Assembly: GCA_021778415.1 (NCBI GenBank)
Contig: JAJYCL010000023.1
Span: 1 to 47,696, forward strand
Direction of reading: 5' to 3'
Source: a bacterium
GTDB taxonomy: Bacteria > Vulcanimicrobiota > Vulcanimicrobiia > Vulcanimicrobiales > Vulcanimicrobiaceae
DNA length: 47,696 nt
A program made the position numbers and the translations under genes. The notes beneath the pieces are model-generated. The model worked only from the letters and a program-made list of their open reading frames with translations, searched no databases and was not told the DNA's origin. Positions 22,643 to 30,079 of this stretch are shown piece by piece; positions within the stretch are counted from its first letter, which is position 1, and every line of letters starts with the position of its first letter.

Positions 22643-24052
22643 TTGAGTCTCTTGCGTCGGTTATTCGTTCGGCAACCGCTAACGTGGGTTGCAGGTGCGA
22701 ATGAAGGGCCGACGCTACGTCGGACATTAGGCTGGCCGGCACTGACGGCAATCGGTCTTGGCACGATGTTGGGCGGAATTTTTCCGACAGTTGGGGCCGG
22801 CGGAATCACTGCCGGCCCCGCCGTCATTGTGTCGTTTGCCTTATCCGGTCTCGTATGCGTGTGTGTCGCGCTTTGCTACGCCGAATTTGCTTCGATGGTT
22901 CCTGTTGCTGGAAGCGCCTATACGTATGCCTATGCAACGCTGGGTGAAATCGTCGCCTGGATTATCGGCTGGGATCTCATTCTTGAGTACGGTGTTAGCG
23001 TAGCGCCAACGGCATCGTCGTGGTCGGCCTATGCACAAGGCCTTCTTGCGCAAATTGGCATTCATCTTCCGGCGTGGGCGATGACCGCGCACGTCGTGTT
23101 CGGACAAGCTCCGAGTTTTGATCTCATCGCCGCCGTCATCGTGTTGTTCGTAACGGGCATCGTGGCCATCGGCATTCGGGAATCGGCAAATGTTAACGGT
23201 GCCTTTGTGTTTCTCCAGGTCATCGCCATGATCGTCTTTGTGGTTGTCGCCTGGCGATTTATCCATCCCGTTAATCTTCATCCGTTTGCTCCGCACGGCT
23301 GGCACGGCGTCGTTACCGGCGCGGCTCAAGTCTTTTTTGCGTACATCGGATTTGATACGGTGACCGTTGCCGCCGAGGAAGCGAAGAACCCCAAACGCGA
23401 TGTCCCTATCGGTATTCTTATTTCATTGCTTGTTGGCGGACTTCTGTATTGTGCGATTGCCTATGTGACCGTCGGCGTTCTCTCGCCGGCGCACTACACA
23501 AACGGAGGCGGAGCGGCGATGAGCGATGTGATTGCATCGATTTCCAGTAATCCGTGGTTACTAGCCGTTGTGGGCTTCGGTGGCATTGCCGGGAATCTGA
23601 CAGTTATGCTGACATCATTGCTCGGCCAAATTCGCATTTTTTATGTGATGGCGCGAGATCGGATGCTGCCGCCCGCCGTGGCGCGCATCGACCCGCGCTT
23701 TCGTACGCCGATGCAAATGACGATGATCACCGGGTGCGTCGTCGCCGTCTTGGCGGCCGTCTATCCTCTGGGTATTCTCTTGGAGTTTACCAATATCGGC
23801 ACACTTTGTGCCTTTGCCATTGTCTGCGCGGGCGTCCTTGTGTTGCGAGTGGTACGCCCCGATGCGCCTCGTCCATTCCGAGTTCCAATGGCACCGGTCT
23901 TGTGCATTGGCGGCGTCGTCGGCTGCATCTATCTCATGTCCGGACTTGCGTTACCCACATGGCTGCGCTTCGGCATCTGGTTTGCGCTGGGGATCGTTAT
24001 CTATGCAGTCTATGGATACCGTCATTCACGATTGCGAACGGCCACACCATGA
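22643..24052 (+). CDS. APC-superfamily amino-acid permease (CAT-like)
   Basis: A 469-aa inner-membrane transporter with about 12-13 hydrophobic segments. The helix 1 break motif GLGTMLGGIFPTVGAGG, the consensus CYAEFASMVPVAGSAYTYAY and the helix 6-8 region FFAYIGFDTVTVAAEEAKNP are typical of the CAT/YhdG branch that carries cationic and neutral amino acids. The start is TTG 22643, as no ATG/GTG fits better. The stop overlaps the egtD start (ATGA, 24049-24052), so the two are translationally coupled; histidine, the EgtD substrate, is a reasonable but unproven cargo. Confidence 0.88.
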   Translation: MSLLRRLFVRQPLTWVAGANEGPTLRRTLGWPALTAIGLGTMLGGIFPTVGAGGITAGPAVIVSFALSGLVCVCVALCYAEFASMVPVAGSAYTYAYATLGEIVAWIIGWDLILEYGVSVAPTASSWSAYAQGLLAQIGIHLPAWAMTAHVVFGQAPSFDLIAAVIVLFVTGIVAIGIRESANVNGAFVFLQVIAMIVFVVVAWRFIHPVNLHPFAPHGWHGVVTGAAQVFFAYIGFDTVTVAAEEAKNPKRDVPIGILISLLVGGLLYCAIAYVTVGVLSPAHYTNGGGAAMSDVIASISSNPWLLAVVGFGGIAGNLTVMLTSLLGQIRIFYVMARDRMLPPAVARIDPRFRTPMQMTMITGCVVAVLAAVYPLGILLEFTNIGTLCAFAIVCAGVLVLRVVRPDAPRPFRVPMAPVLCIGGVVGCIYLMSGLALPTWLRFGIWFALGIVIYAVYGYRHSRLRTATP

Positions 24053-25038
24053 TCGATGAGCGCGAGCGCGTTGAATATGTTCGAGTTCCGGTCCGTCACG
24101 CCGCTCCGACGTTCGCGCAAGACGTGCTTACCGGACTCACCGGCAAGCAGAAAAGTTTGCGCGCACTCTACTTTTATGACGATGTCGGTTCGGCGCTGTT
24201 CGATGCCATTACCAAACTTGATGCATATTATCTCACGCGCGCGGAGACGGAAATCTTGCGCGAATCGAGCTGGGAAATCGTGCGCGCACTCGATAGCCCT
24301 CCGGAATTTTTTGAACTGGGCAGCGGTAGTGCAGAAAAAACCCGGCTGCTCATCGATGATGCTATCCGTGCGCATGGATCGCTGCGCTATTCTCCCGTGG
24401 ATATCTCTGCTAGTGCACTTCATGGATCTGCAAAGCGCCTGACTGCTTCGTTTCCGGATTTACGTATTCGCGCCTACGAAGGCGACTATTTCGATGTGCT
24501 TGCATCGCCGCAACTGCAGTTTGACGGTCGTGTCTTGGCAATGTTCATGGGTTCGAATATCGGTAATCTCGATCCGCAGGAAACCAGCACATTATTAATG
24601 GCGCTCGGGAGGGCGTTGCGACCGGGCGACGGGTTGCTTCTTGGTGCCGATCTTAAGAAAGATCGGGCAATCCTCGAACGAGCCTACGACGATCCGGCCG
24701 GGGTTACGGCTGCTTTCGATAAGAATCTGCTGGTTCGGATCAATCGCGAATTCGACGGTGATTTCGATCTTGCCGATTTTCGTCATGTGGCCGAGTATGA
24801 CGAGCGGCGCGGCGTCGTCGAATCGTATTTGGAAGCGTTACGGCCAGTCTACGTTCGACTCGCCGCGCTCGATACGACGATTCATTTTGCGCGTGAAGAG
24901 CGCATCCATACGGAATCATCGTATAAATACGATATCGAACAATTGCATCGCTTAGGTGTGGAGTGCGGATTCGTTCCGCAACGAGAATGGTTTGATCGGG
25001 GGCATCGCTTTACCGTAACCTTATTGGTGCGCGCGTAA
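24049..25038 (+). CDS. egtD: L-histidine N-alpha-methyltransferase EgtD
   Basis: A 329-aa SAM-dependent enzyme that trimethylates histidine to hercynine, the first step of ergothioneine synthesis. Family blocks: KSLRALYFYDDVGSALFDAI, DAYYLTRAETEIL, the SAM site FELGSGSAEKTRLLIDD, MFMGSNIGNLDPQE with the substrate-binding Asn, and the C-terminal EERIHTESSYKY with the Glu and Ser that contact the amino group. ATG 24049 overlaps the permease stop. No EgtB or EgtE is in view, so the pathway may end at hercynine here or continue elsewhere. Its 3' end overlaps the convergent ABC permease by 18 nt. Confidence 0.9.
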   Translation: MIDERERVEYVRVPVRHAAPTFAQDVLTGLTGKQKSLRALYFYDDVGSALFDAITKLDAYYLTRAETEILRESSWEIVRALDSPPEFFELGSGSAEKTRLLIDDAIRAHGSLRYSPVDISASALHGSAKRLTASFPDLRIRAYEGDYFDVLASPQLQFDGRVLAMFMGSNIGNLDPQETSTLLMALGRALRPGDGLLLGADLKKDRAILERAYDDPAGVTAAFDKNLLVRINREFDGDFDLADFRHVAEYDERRGVVESYLEALRPVYVRLAALDTTIHFAREERIHTESSYKYDIEQLHRLGVECGFVPQREWFDRGHRFTVTLLVRA

Positions 25039-25644
25039 CGTCGCTATCCGCTCTCCCTGGCGAACGGCAAGATCGGTGACGATTGCTAGGAGTGCAACGG
25101 GAAGTGCGCCGGCGATCGTCATTTGCATATTGTGAAGGGCCAGGCCGGAGAAAATCAATTCTCCCATTCCCCCGGCACTGACGTACCCGGCGAGTGCGCC
25201 AAGCCCGATGCAGGCGATGGCGGCGATGCGAAAACCGGCAAGGAGCTTGGGTAAGGCAAGTGGCAATTCGATGCGCGCAAAGCGTTGTCGCGCCGACATT
25301 CCCATTGCGATTGCGCTTTCGCGAAGTGGTATCGGGATGTCCGTATGTGCTGCAATGATTGCACGGGTGAGGAAGATTTGCGCATATGCTGCCAGTGCGA
25401 TCACCGCAGGCAGAAAGCCTAAGCCGAACATGCGTACCAGGACCGCAAGCACAGCGAGTGACGGAATCGTATAGAGCATCGTAAGCGACCCAAGAATGAT
25501 CGCAGCGAGGCCCGTATTGCGCAGGGCAAGGAACGCCAACGGAACGGCGACGACGCTTGCGAGCATGAGCGCGCTCGTCACGAGGACCAGATGTCCGCCG
25601 AAAAGGCTCAGCATACGATCCGGATGGGAGATGGCGTAGTTCAT
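25021..25644 (-). CDS. Betaine-type ABC transporter permease (OpuC/YehW-like)
   Basis: A 207-aa inner-membrane permease of the OpuB/OpuC/YehW class with about five to six hydrophobic segments. The ABC permease loop is readable as ESAIAMGMSARQRFARIELPLALPKLLAG-like, i.e. EsaiaMGms...ielPlAlp, which docks to the ATPase. GYVSAGGMGELIFSGL follows. The start overlaps the ATPase stop by 4 nt (25641-25644). It is the last gene of a four-gene importer operon with a second permease at the other end, the usual arrangement of YehWXYZ and OpuC systems. Confidence 0.88.
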   Translation of the reverse strand: MNYAISHPDRMLSLFGGHLVLVTSALMLASVVAVPLAFLALRNTGLAAIILGSLTMLYTIPSLAVLAVLVRMFGLGFLPAVIALAAYAQIFLTRAIIAAHTDIPIPLRESAIAMGMSARQRFARIELPLALPKLLAGFRIAAIACIGLGALAGYVSAGGMGELIFSGLALHNMQMTIAGALPVALLAIVTDLAVRQGERIATLRAHQ

Positions 25645-26351
25645 TGCTGATCCCGTAAGGCGAGCAACGGTGCTTCGTCGTCGCCGAGAATGCGATGAAG
25701 AATGTCGTACGAGGTTGCCGTTCCGGCTTGTAACAGGGACCGAACGAAGGCGTCTCCGGGATTTCGCAGGAGCTCCGACGGGGTGGCGCAGGCAACGACT
25801 GCTCCTTCGCGCATCACCGCAACGCGATGGGCCACGGTCAGCGCCTCGCCAATATCGTGAGTAACGAGAAGCACCGTTGTTCCCGAGGCACGTACAGCGG
25901 TGAAAAGTTCGCGCTGCAGCGCCGTGCGAACCAAAGGATCGACGGCGGCAAACGGCTCGTCCATAAGCATGAGACGAGGCTCGGCAGCGAGAGCGCGTGC
26001 GACGCCGGCACGCTGCGCTTGCCCACCCGAGAGCGATGCCGGATAACGATTGCGTAATGCATCATCTAAACGCACCAATTGCAAAAGCGCGCCGACACGG
26101 GCTGCGATGCGCTCGCGATTCCATCCGAGAAGCGAAGGAACGACAGCGATATTTTCTGCCACAGTCATATGGGGAAAGAGACCGACCGATTGAATCACAT
26201 AGCCGATAGACCTCCGCAGCGTCACTGCATCCATCGTCGCTGTGTTGACGCCGTCAATTTCAATGCGACCGGATCGATGATCGATGAGACGATTGATGGA
26301 TCGTAAGAGGGTGGTTTTGCCGCAGCCCGATGGCCCAACGAGTGCAAGCAC
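25641..26351 (-). CDS. Betaine-type ABC transporter ATP-binding protein (OpuCA/YehX-like; start unresolved)
   Basis: ATPase subunit of the importer. Motifs: Walker A GPSGCGKTT, Q-loop YVIQSVGLFPHMTV, signature LSGGQAQRAGVARAL, Walker B LMLMDEPFAAVD, H-loop LLVTHD. The first ATG/GTG/TTG, GTG 26351, falls only 5 codons before Walker A and would delete the first beta strands. The same frame stays open upstream through CIDLSIRHPKASSDAVVGVN, which aligns with the expected N-terminus, up to a CTG at 26462 overlapping the binding-protein TGA. True translation probably begins near 26462 with a rare start codon. The CBS domains of OpuCA are absent. Confidence 0.88.
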   Translation of the reverse strand: MLALVGPSGCGKTTLLRSINRLIDHRSGRIEIDGVNTATMDAVTLRRSIGYVIQSVGLFPHMTVAENIAVVPSLLGWNRERIAARVGALLQLVRLDDALRNRYPASLSGGQAQRAGVARALAAEPRLMLMDEPFAAVDPLVRTALQRELFTAVRASGTTVLLVTHDIGEALTVAHRVAVMREGAVVACATPSELLRNPGDAFVRSLLQAGTATSYDILHRILGDDEAPLLALRDQQ

Positions 26352-26458
26352 TTCGCCTGCAGAGGCGTGGAGGTTGACGCCGACGACGGCATCACTGCTC
26401 GCCTTCGGATGTCGAATGGAAAGATCGATGCATTGGAGCGATGCGCCGCGATGGTTGC

Positions 26459-27334
26459 TCAGGGTGCAATCTCCGCAAGGAACGCTGCTGCGACATCGTG
26501 CGGATCGGCGTGATCACTTTCGATGCGTGCATTCATTGCTTGCATGCGTTCCGTCGTAATGGCAGATTCAATCGCATTAAGCGTTGGGGCAATCATGGGA
26601 AACGCTTTCATGGTTGCTTCACGGACGACGGGAGCAGGGCGATACGGCGGCCAGAGATGCTTGTCGTCATCGAGCAAAACGAGATGTTGCGTCGCGACGG
26701 TTCCATCCGTGCTAAAGGCCGTTGCAACATCTGCATGACCCGTCAAGAGCGCGTCGTATTTCAACCCAATATCGTATGTGCGTATCTCTTTGAAGGCGAA
26801 ACCTCCATAGCGCTTGCGTAACCCGGGCAAGCCGTCGGCGCGGGTGAGAAACTCAGGGATGGTTGCCAAACGAAGTTGGGGCGCCAAGCGACTGAGTTGC
26901 GAGAGCGTATGCAGATCATGTCGCGTTGCAATCATCTTCGTCGTAGCGATGGCTTGCGTATCGTTCATCGGTGCGGGATCAAGCCAAAGAAGGCCGTATT
27001 TCGTTTTAAACGCGTCGGCAACAGTGCGATAGATTGTGGCGGCATCTTGGGATGCCGGGAGGTTGAGCACGGTGAGCAGCGCTGTCCCGGTGTACTCCGG
27101 ATACAAATCGATCTCGCCGCGCGCAATGGCCGCCATGGCGATCTGCGTGCTACCGAGATTTAATCTCGTCGTGACACGCATGCCCGCTTTGCGTAGCGCT
27201 TGTGCATAGATTTCTGCGAGCAGTATCGATTCCGTGAAATTTTTTGAACCCACGATAATGGATGATGATGGCGAGCACGCTGCAAGCGAACATGCGCCGC
27301 CGATCAAACCGAGGGCTGTGCGTCGAGAAATCAT
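26459..27334 (-). CDS. Substrate-binding lipoprotein of a quaternary-amine ABC importer (OpuCC/EgtU/YehZ family)
   Basis: A 291-aa exported ligand-binding protein. The signal MISRRTALGLIGGACSLAAC has both a lipobox (LAAC) and a twin-arginine-like SRRTALG. Mature start VGSKNFTESILLAEIYAQAL and DLYPEYTGTALL are signatures of the OpuAC/ProX type that binds betaines in an aromatic cage. The next family motif (normally NNTYAL) reads PMNDTQAIATT, so the ligand pocket differs from glycine-betaine proteins. It is coupled by ATGA to the permease before it (27331-27334). Ligand could be betaine, choline, hercynine or ergothioneine. Confidence 0.87.
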   Translation of the reverse strand: MISRRTALGLIGGACSLAACSPSSSIIVGSKNFTESILLAEIYAQALRKAGMRVTTRLNLGSTQIAMAAIARGEIDLYPEYTGTALLTVLNLPASQDAATIYRTVADAFKTKYGLLWLDPAPMNDTQAIATTKMIATRHDLHTLSQLSRLAPQLRLATIPEFLTRADGLPGLRKRYGGFAFKEIRTYDIGLKYDALLTGHADVATAFSTDGTVATQHLVLLDDDKHLWPPYRPAPVVREATMKAFPMIAPTLNAIESAITTERMQAMNARIESDHADPHDVAAAFLAEIAP

Positions 27335-27933
27335 GCTTGTGGAACCTTCACCTTTCGGGCGAGCAGTGAGAACGCAGCATCGGTTGCAAGAGCGAGAAGC
27401 GCAACGGTCATGACTCCGCGCATTAACGTCACGTCATTATTCGTCTGAAGGCCGTTGATGATGATGTCTCCTAAGCCGCCCGCGCCGACGAACGTTGCAA
27501 GGGTGGCGCCGGCCACGATTTCCAGGGCTGCAAGGCGCACGCCGGCGGCGCAAAATCCAAGGGAAAGTGGAACGCTGATACGCCAAAACAGCGCTCGCGA
27601 ACTCAAACCCATGGCTCGGCCCGATTCTATGACCGCCGAAGGAACCGCCCGTAGGCCCGCGTCGGCGTTGATGACGACCGGAGCGAGGGCCAGCGCGAAG
27701 AGTGCCACGACGGCCGGTGGCGTGCCGATCCCGAGCGACGGGATGAGCAGGGTGAGCAACGCCAGGCTGGGGATCGTGCGGGCTAGCGCAGCGAACGCGA
27801 GAATGGCCTGACGTGCCTTGGTATACGCGGCGGCGACGCCCAGGGGCAAGCCGATTATGAGCGTGCAAATCAGCGCTTGCGCGCTTAGGATCACATGGTC
27901 GCCCAGCGCGACGAGAACGGCATGCCAACTCAC
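27331..27933 (-). CDS. Betaine-type ABC transporter permease (OpuCB/YehY-like), first gene of importer operon
   Basis: A 200-aa inner-membrane permease, paralogous to the one at 25021. It opens MSWHAVLVALGDHVILSAQA and has the coupling loop ESGRAMGLSSRALFWRISVP followed by GAGGLGDIIINGL. About five or six membrane segments. Operon order permease, binding protein, ATPase, permease, all joined by short overlaps, is standard for importers of quaternary amines. Divergent ppk1 begins 43 bp away, so the two promoters share a very short space. Confidence 0.88.
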   Translation of the reverse strand: MSWHAVLVALGDHVILSAQALICTLIIGLPLGVAAAYTKARQAILAFAALARTIPSLALLTLLIPSLGIGTPPAVVALFALALAPVVINADAGLRAVPSAVIESGRAMGLSSRALFWRISVPLSLGFCAAGVRLAALEIVAGATLATFVGAGGLGDIIINGLQTNNDVTLMRGVMTVALLALATDAAFSLLARKVKVPQA

Positions 27934-27976
27934 GCGCAGAGGTTTCCTCGGTCACACGCGAACTCCGTTGCCAGAT

Positions 27977-30079
27977 ATGATCTCGACCCTACCGAGCCTC
28001 CCCGATGAATCGTCCGATCCGCTCGCCGATCATCAGTACTACTTCAGCCGCGAACTCTCGTGGCTCGAATTCAATGATCGCGTCCTGGAGGAAGCGCTCG
28101 ACGATCGGAATGCGCTGCTCGAGCGGCTGAAATTTATTGCCATCTACGGCACGAATCTCGACGAATTTTTCATGATTCGCGTCGCTGCGATCAAGCAACA
28201 AATCGATGCCGGTGTCCTCAAGCCTTCCGACGATGGGCTTTCCCCGGCCGAGCATCTTGCAGCGGTGTCGTCGCGCTTACGCGGATCGTTGCAAAAGCAG
28301 ATGCGCTTGCTTGGCGGCGATCTCTTTCCGGCGCTGGCAAGCAAGGGCTTGTCGGTTCGCCGCGTCGATGAACTCGATGCGCAGACGCGCGTCGATGTTG
28401 AACGCTATTTCGACGAGCGCGTGTTTCCGGTGCTCACACCGTTAGCCGTCGATTCGGGGCATCCGTTTCCGTATATTTCGAATCTCTCGCTCTCGCTCGC
28501 AGTCGAGTTGGAAGAAGTGACGGCAGAAGGCGTCGAGTTGCATTTCGCGCGGGTGAAAATCCCTCCGACATTGCCGCGTTTTGTGCCAGTTGCAACGGCG
28601 GCCGGCCACGGGCAGACGTTCGTCGTGCTCGAAGATTTGATTGCGCATCATTTGGGTTCGCTTTTTCCCGGGTTGCAGGTGCGTGATTCATATCTCTTCC
28701 GCGTGACGCGTGATGCCGATATCGAAGTGCAAGAAGACGAGGCGGATGATCTGCTTCGGGCGATCGAATCCGAATTGCAAAAACGTCGTTTCGGTGAGCC
28801 GGTGCGTTTGGAAATCGAGCGCGGCATGCCGGAGTATCTGCAAGATTTCTTGCTGAAATCGCTTGACCTTGCCGAATCGGATTGCTACGAAGTCGACGGT
28901 TTGATGGGCACATCCGATCTGTGGAGCCTGGTGAATCTTCCCGGATACGATGGACTCCGCGATAAGCCGTTTACGCCATCGATTCCTAAGCGTTTGCTTG
29001 GGGTCACGAATATCTTCTCGGCAATTCGCGAAGGCGATATTCTGCTCCATCATCCCTACGAATCGTTCGACCCCGTCGTCCAATTCGTCGCCGAGGCCGC
29101 GCGCGATGAGCGAGTTCTCGCGATTAAGATGACGCTGTATCGTACTTCCGGAAATAATTCACCGATTGTTCGCGCCTTGCTTGAAGCGGCAGAAAACGAA
29201 AAGCAAGTCGCCGTGATCATGGAACTCAAAGCGCGTTTCGATGAAGAGAACAATATCGAGTGGGCTAAACGCCTGGAACGCGCGGGTGTGCACGTGGTCT
29301 ATGGCTTCCCCGGCCTTAAGGTGCATGCGAAGCTCATTATGGTGGTGCGCGAAGATGACGATGGCTTGCGTCGGTATCTGCATTTTGGAACGGGAAATTA
29401 CAACGAGAAGAGTGCGCGGCTCTATACCGATGTGAGCTTGTTTACGGCGCGCCCGGAACTTGGCGATGATGCAGCGCAATTATTTAATGCGCTGACCGGT
29501 TTCTCGCGTGTCTCGGATTATGAGGCCTTGCACGTTGCTCCGGTCACCTTGCGGCGTGAACTTATCACGCTCATCGAACGCGAGACCGAACACGCGAAAG
29601 CGGGACGTCCCCGCGGAATCAAAGCCAAACTCAACGCCGTAACCGATGGCGAGGTGATTCGTGCCTTGTACCGTGCCTCGCAAGCCGGTGTCCAGATCGA
29701 CTTGCTCGTGCGCGGTATGTGCTCGCTGCGCCCGGGTCTGCCCGGTGTGAGCGAGACGATTCGCGTGCGGAGCATCGTCGGGCGCTTTCTCGAGCACTCG
29801 CGGGTCTTTGCCTTCGAGAACGGCGGCAAGCGGGAAATCTTTATCGGAAGTGCCGACTGGATGGGGCGTAATCTGGATCGCCGCGTCGAGTTGTGCGTGC
29901 CGGTCCTGGATACGTTCGTGGCCGATGGTCTGTACCGCCGGATCTTAGGGACGCTCTTCTCCGACAACATGAAGAGCCGCGAATTGCGCTCCGATGGGAG
30001 CTACATCCGCAAAGCCCCAGGCGAGGGTGAGCGTAAAAGCGACGCGCAAGCGGCTTTTTTGCGGCACTATGCGACATAA
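27977..30079 (+). CDS. ppk1: Polyphosphate kinase 1
   Basis: A 700-aa enzyme, full family length, that reversibly makes polyphosphate from ATP. ATG 27977 gives the usual N-terminus with YYFSRELSWLEFNDRVLEEA. Four domains can be followed; the phospholipase-D-like C-terminal halves hold LHHPYESFDPVVQFV, FPGLKVHAKLIMVVRE with the autophosphorylated His, and RFLEHSRVFAFENGG with the second His, then FIGSADWMGRNLDRRVEL. Divergent from the betaine importer. Polyphosphate stores would suit a phosphate- or energy-limited lifestyle, but no phosphate regulator is adjacent. Confidence 0.96.
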   Translation: MISTLPSLPDESSDPLADHQYYFSRELSWLEFNDRVLEEALDDRNALLERLKFIAIYGTNLDEFFMIRVAAIKQQIDAGVLKPSDDGLSPAEHLAAVSSRLRGSLQKQMRLLGGDLFPALASKGLSVRRVDELDAQTRVDVERYFDERVFPVLTPLAVDSGHPFPYISNLSLSLAVELEEVTAEGVELHFARVKIPPTLPRFVPVATAAGHGQTFVVLEDLIAHHLGSLFPGLQVRDSYLFRVTRDADIEVQEDEADDLLRAIESELQKRRFGEPVRLEIERGMPEYLQDFLLKSLDLAESDCYEVDGLMGTSDLWSLVNLPGYDGLRDKPFTPSIPKRLLGVTNIFSAIREGDILLHHPYESFDPVVQFVAEAARDERVLAIKMTLYRTSGNNSPIVRALLEAAENEKQVAVIMELKARFDEENNIEWAKRLERAGVHVVYGFPGLKVHAKLIMVVREDDDGLRRYLHFGTGNYNEKSARLYTDVSLFTARPELGDDAAQLFNALTGFSRVSDYEALHVAPVTLRRELITLIERETEHAKAGRPRGIKAKLNAVTDGEVIRALYRASQAGVQIDLLVRGMCSLRPGLPGVSETIRVRSIVGRFLEHSRVFAFENGGKREIFIGSADWMGRNLDRRVELCVPVLDTFVADGLYRRILGTLFSDNMKSRELRSDGSYIRKAPGEGERKSDAQAAFLRHYAT

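Follow-up and report, generated by a model that had tools for sequence, protein, structure and literature searches.

We found that a complete ABC importer of the OpuC/EgtU type is encoded tail to tail with the gene for the predicted histidine methyltransferase EgtD and that the two occur as a pair across the bacterium's whole class within the Eremiobacterota. The window, meaning the whole 47,696-nucleotide stretch of DNA analyzed here, is one entire contig (C2) of the 2.59-Mb, 61-contig genome of a soil-type bacterium whose nearest named relatives are Eremiobacterota/Vulcanimicrobiota genomes. A functional link between EgtD and the importer seems to us reasonably probable. The more specific proposal, that the importer is linked to EgtD and salvages a histidine betaine, is our best single reading but an evenly balanced one, in which we infer both the ligand and the physiological role.

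The egtD locus and the users of hercynine

On the plus strand, an APC-superfamily amino-acid permease of the CAT/BcaP-like kind (22643..24052; PF13520, E=5.7e-51) is followed by egtD (24049..25038), whose start overlaps the end of the permease gene by ATGA, and the two genes are likely to be cotranscribed. The top NCBIfam match of the permease is BcaP (NF053761), at 475 bits against an equivalog cut-off of 690, which leaves it outside BcaP proper. It is a same-strand neighbor of EgtD in about 20 loci of the window's family and is absent in the order-level family f2 and the class-level sister family f3. The ATGA overlap itself is not general, the gaps being mostly −4 to +97 bp and about 800 to 900 bp in three loci.

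The importer occupies four genes on the minus strand (25021-27933), in the operon order permease (27331..27933; PF00528, E=2.7e-20), lipoprotein-type substrate-binding protein of cluster F-III (26459..27334; PF04069, E=6e-62), ATPase (about 25641..26462; PF00005, with ProV as top NCBIfam match at 248 bits), and second permease (25021..25644; PF00528, E=1.7e-18). The 3′ ends of the last gene and of egtD overlap by 18 bp. An OpuAC-fold binding protein, a ProV-type ATPase, and two PF00528 permeases place the system in cluster F-III (OpuC/EgtU/YehZ). The preliminary description was right about both the permease-egtD overlap and the complete OpuC/EgtU/YehWXYZ-type importer facing it. The open frame of the ATPase reads to 26456, with no ATG, GTG, or TTG start upstream of 26351; a start at 26351 would remove the first strand of the protein (26351-26462, minus strand). 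Judging from the sequence, the true start is probably a CTG within a CTGA overlap with the binding-protein stop. On the far side of the importer, the polyphosphate kinase ORF as listed (27818-30079) has a TTG start inside the divergent permease gene, and its true start is probably an ATG near 27978.

The 329-residue product of egtD (PF10017, E=5.4e-100) scores 325.9 bits against the curated TIGR03438 equivalog for L-histidine Nα-methyltransferase (cut-off, 290.9), and its closest solved structures are mycobacterial EgtD proteins, aligned over nearly the full length. The histidine-binding residues of Mycobacterium smegmatis EgtD (Y39, N166, Y206, E282, and S284) are all identical in the alignment with 4pim. 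By these sequence comparisons, its identity as EgtD is close to certain.

Hercynine is the precursor of the antioxidants ergothioneine and selenoneine. As the product of EgtD, it feeds both the EgtB-EgtD and the SenA-SenB-SenC pathways (Kayrouz 2022, summarised in PMC9814287), and it is the substrate of SenA in selenoneine clusters (PMC9814287). The preliminary description saw no EgtB, which holds within the window but not as a statement about the pathway in the genome. A domain search identified two FGE-sulfatase-domain homologues, both outside the window. One is SenA, on contig C12 (483 bits; equivalog cut-off, 420), with SenB adjoining and divergent (314 bits; cut-off, 300) and a SelD gene close by downstream; this selenoneine cluster lies at L057:5913-10335 (C12, about 81.9-86.3 kb). 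The other is a divergent sulfoxide-synthase homologue on contig C45, which scores below the EgtB, OvoA, and SenA cut-offs and has EgtB-IV as its top solved relative. Against EgtB itself (TIGR03440; cut-off, 360 bits) the two homologues reach 317 and 185 bits. SenA is above its cut-off in 20 of the 98 genomes compared, and nearly all members of the window's family have the EgtB-IV-like protein. Because the genome encodes SenA-SenB-SelD and an EgtB-IV-like enzyme, hercynine likely has users there. The host thus resembles the known EgtB-EgtD and SenA-SenB-SenC pathways in having EgtD together with SenA, SenB, and SelD but differs in that an importer adjoins egtD, to which neither the sen cluster nor the EgtB-IV-like gene is linked.

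Conservation of the EgtD-importer pair

The preliminary description had staked its reading beforehand on conservation of this neighborhood in relatives, and that expectation was borne out. EgtD and the binding protein were both present in 74 of the 79 class genomes searched, and in 63 of those 74, EgtD and the importer lie on one contig no more than 10 kb apart. The remaining 11 mostly reflect contig breaks, with real separations in genus g18 (three genomes), in G036, and possibly in G015. Within the window's own family, synteny extends over the whole stretch from the MGDG synthase to the polyphosphate kinase, which makes adjacency there of little value as evidence. In f2, the polyphosphate kinase sits on the opposite side of EgtD. 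Of the 12 f3 genomes, 11 keep EgtD and the importer together, and in the remaining one both lie at contig ends. In f3 these are the only window genes still together, their flanks being unrelated to those of the window.

Other observations count against the histidine-betaine reading. In some genomes, EgtD and the importer are separated by as much as 5.8 kb of unrelated genes; when checked for a pathway role, these inserted genes proved to be mostly unrelated to one another and included no egt or sen gene. In genus g18, EgtD adjoins an EgtB-IV-like gene divergently and the importer is elsewhere.

The importer of g18 (L192, L193, and L194) is of another type, a binding-protein/permease fusion with a four-Tyr cage, which replaces the window type. 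In G036 (L195:7370-8254), the importer is about 70 kb from EgtD, and residue 127 is Glu, with M123 changed to Leu and D125 to Asn. EgtD and the binding protein are jointly absent in G021, G075, and G078 (Fisher, 1.3e-4). We dropped this joint loss as linkage evidence; a DNA comparison showed that the locus falls in a contig gap in G075 and G078. G021, the sole remaining joint absence, is also without every FGE-type homologue.

Importers of the same protein family also lie beside EgtD in 4 of the 30 Bacteroidota and 3 of the 40 Acidobacteriota EgtD loci read, while a simple placement model that ignores relatedness gives a chance expectation of about 0.2 to 0.4 such loci per 70. Gene orders vary. 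In Bacteroidota, an ATPase and a fusion precede EgtB and EgtD in L055 (binding-protein/permease fusion) and in L179 and L186 (permease/binding-protein fusion), and in L164, EgtD is followed by the importer. In Acidobacteriota, the order is EgtD, ATPase, and fusion in L251 and L258, and ATPase, permease, binding protein, EgtB-IV-like gene, and EgtD in L275, where a single gene on the opposite strand interrupts the series. Importers have probably joined EgtD loci more than once. The top solved match of the L186 importer is Streptococcus pneumoniae EgtUC (200 bits, versus 146 for ProX), and the closest natural relative of the L251 importer among solved chains is Helicobacter pylori EgtU (182 bits); by sequence, these two egtD-linked importers outside the class thus resemble proven ergothioneine importers.

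Several further features of these distant loci were recorded. The binding domain is circularly permuted in the egtD-adjacent permease/binding-protein fusions of three Bacteroidota loci (L186:3743-5314, L179:8229-9626, and L164:9148-10710), with the C-terminal half (EFxxR, YSTD, PPY) preceding the N-terminal half (GSK/GGK, YTGT, NxY). Directly upstream of the importer-EgtB-EgtD operon in L179 (10751-12136) and L186 (1192-2586) is a gene for an FAD disulfide-reductase-type protein (MerA/RclA-like), possibly an ergothioneine disulfide reductase. In the Acidobacteriota loci L244, L247, and L252, SenA, SenB, and EgtD are encoded together on one strand, making these selenoneine loci with an EgtD of their own.

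The binding-protein pocket

Pocket positions were mapped from alignments and the EgtUC-ergothioneine structure (PMC9732360). In the window binding protein they are K31, Y81, T84, D125, Q127, R165, F207, and Y231. Relative to EgtU, the S. pneumoniae ergothioneine ABC importer (EgtUA-EgtUBC; PDB 7TXK/7TXL; PMC9732360), the protein keeps K31 (K242), T63 (T275), T84 (T296), E161 (E375), R165 (R379), and Y231 (Y443). All four of the EgtU contacts K242, T296, R379, and E375 are therefore conserved; in EgtU, the K, T, and R bind the carboxylate of the ligand and the E contacts its imidazole (PMC9732360). Neither the E nor the R is confined to EgtU; both are found in relatives of other kinds, and the E161 contact is therefore no mark of EgtU. 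The positions that differ are F33 for G244, Y81 for F293, M123 for Y337, D125 for N339, Q127 for Y341, and F207 for Y419. Since G244 and F293, the latter a Tyr-to-Phe switch, are held to mark EgtU against other F-III proteins (PMC9732360), their replacement by F33 and Y81 means that the window protein is not EgtU by signature. The four-aromatic cage and Asn339 of EgtU likewise have as counterparts Y81, Q127, F207, and Y231, with D125. With two of the four cage tyrosines gone, it is not a standard glycine-betaine protein either.

The NDTQ motif singled out in the preliminary description is indeed present, at residues 124-127, but it gave an incomplete picture, because a second cage position, F207, has changed as well. 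All 61 EgtD-linked class rows examined (some genomes are counted twice) carry Q127 and F207 without exception. It is plausible, from the motif and the invariance of Q127 in the EgtD-linked lineage, that NDTQ signals a different ligand.

Overall similarity does not favor one relative. The binding protein scores 137 bits against EgtUC, 140 against OpuBC, and 137 against OpuCC (phmmer) and is thus no closer to EgtU, while its only NCBIfam match, OsmF/YehZ (NF049931), reaches 177.4 bits against a cut-off of 400. Its fold gives Z scores of about 31 to 35 to F-III chains and about 18 to other OpuAC/ProX types. In the predicted model (pLDDT, 89), the fold is tied among EgtU, OpuBC, and OpuCC (Z about 32-34), so fold comparison cannot choose the ligand. 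The cage comparison proposed in the preliminary description sets the protein apart from EgtU by its Gln and Phe changes, while the modeled fold matches EgtU and OpuCC equally. Because signature, cage, and fold do not single out one ligand, it is from genome context and not from the pocket that we infer it.

The system is like EgtU in being a binding-protein-dependent ABC importer with an F-III binding domain and the K/T/R/E contacts, but it has a separate binding lipoprotein and two permeases, and its genes adjoin egtD in an organism that is likely to be a producer; EgtU, by contrast, was found in a nonproducer (PMC9732360). In composition (one ATPase, two permeases, and one separate binding protein) it resembles the Escherichia coli glycine betaine importer YehZYXW (OsmF/YehWXY), although the Gln and Phe of the window protein correspond to Trp and Tyr in OsmF. 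Bacillus subtilis OpuBC/OpuCC and Archaeoglobus fulgidus ProX share its fold (VIA Z of about 32-34) and the YTGT and DG motifs, but their four-Tyr cage is reduced here to Tyr, Phe, and Tyr plus Gln.

Proposed role and alternatives

We propose that EgtD methylates histidine to hercynine, which would feed the genome's own SenA/SenB/SelD selenoneine pathway and probably also the EgtB-IV-like enzyme. The importer would most likely scavenge a histidine betaine (ergothioneine, hercynine, or selenoneine) from outside the cell, so that one kind of metabolite would be both made and salvaged from a single locus, and the upstream APC permease would presumably handle amino-acid traffic of the same module. 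The hercynine/ergothioneine-type module suggested in the preliminary description is supported by the class-wide pairing, the unrelated flanks in f3, the recurrence in Bacteroidota and Acidobacteriota, and the two EgtU-like importers, even though the absence of EgtB that went with it was refuted at the genome level.

The main rival, which we consider somewhat unlikely, is an ordinary osmoprotectant importer for glycine betaine, choline, carnitine, or proline betaine, whose adjacency to EgtD would be old synteny without functional meaning. Sequence and fold match OpuBC, OpuCC, and ProX as well as EgtU, and the binding protein is the sole PF04069 (OpuAC-domain) protein found in the genome, as that of a general osmolyte importer might be, a point that counts against the histidine-betaine reading. 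The polyphosphate kinase and MGDG synthase also travel with the pair in families f1 and f2, and unrelated genes are often inserted between EgtD and the importer. Old synteny sits poorly, however, with the persistence of the pair in f3 after every other window neighbor has gone and with the recurrence of egtD-linked importers in two other phyla in other gene orders, and the loss of two of the four betaine-cage tyrosines speaks against an ordinary osmoprotectant ligand.

That same loss could point elsewhere: a Gln in place of a cage tyrosine should weaken a quaternary-ammonium cage, and an amino-acid permease precedes EgtD here and in the other family loci noted above, as if the importer served the substrate side of EgtD by supplying histidine or a different amino acid, with the APC permease assisting. 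We regard such uptake of an amino acid instead of a trimethylated betaine as improbable, given that three aromatic faces remain (Y81, F207, and Y231), that the ligands named for its close solved relatives are quaternary or other amines, and that the APC permease is missing in f2 and f3. EgtD consumes three SAM per hercynine, and an importer of a betaine-type family might bring in glycine betaine or choline as the methyl source for these methylations. This would be a very improbable role: a domain search of the genome yielded no separate betaine-homocysteine methyltransferase of PF02574, the only S-methyl_trans (PF02574) match being a MetH-sized frame of 1,174 amino acids.

Returning to the histidine-betaine importer, we found no description of an EgtD-linked importer, and no report of ergothioneine or selenoneine in Eremiobacterota, in the open-licence literature. 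That a betaine-family importer can be tied to ergothioneine-type metabolism is already known from EgtU; the new elements are the Gln/Phe pocket and the fact that, in likely producers, the importer is paired with EgtD. A bolder reading, which we hold to be doubtful, is that these proteins form a branch of histidine-betaine importers not described before, which is fixed beside egtD in a whole class of Eremiobacterota and reads its ligand with a Gln/Phe-modified cage unlike that of EgtU, and that in a selenoneine-encoding genome this could be the first bacterial hercynine/selenoneine importer. The altered pocket could be used to test how these ligands are distinguished by F-III binding proteins. 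EgtU, the best-studied bacterial ergothioneine importer, comes from organisms unable to make ergothioneine. If our proposal is correct, the conservation of an importer next to EgtD would mean that salvage also takes place in likely producers, and genomes outside the Firmicutes could then be searched directly, by this linkage, for importers of hercynine, ergothioneine, and selenoneine.
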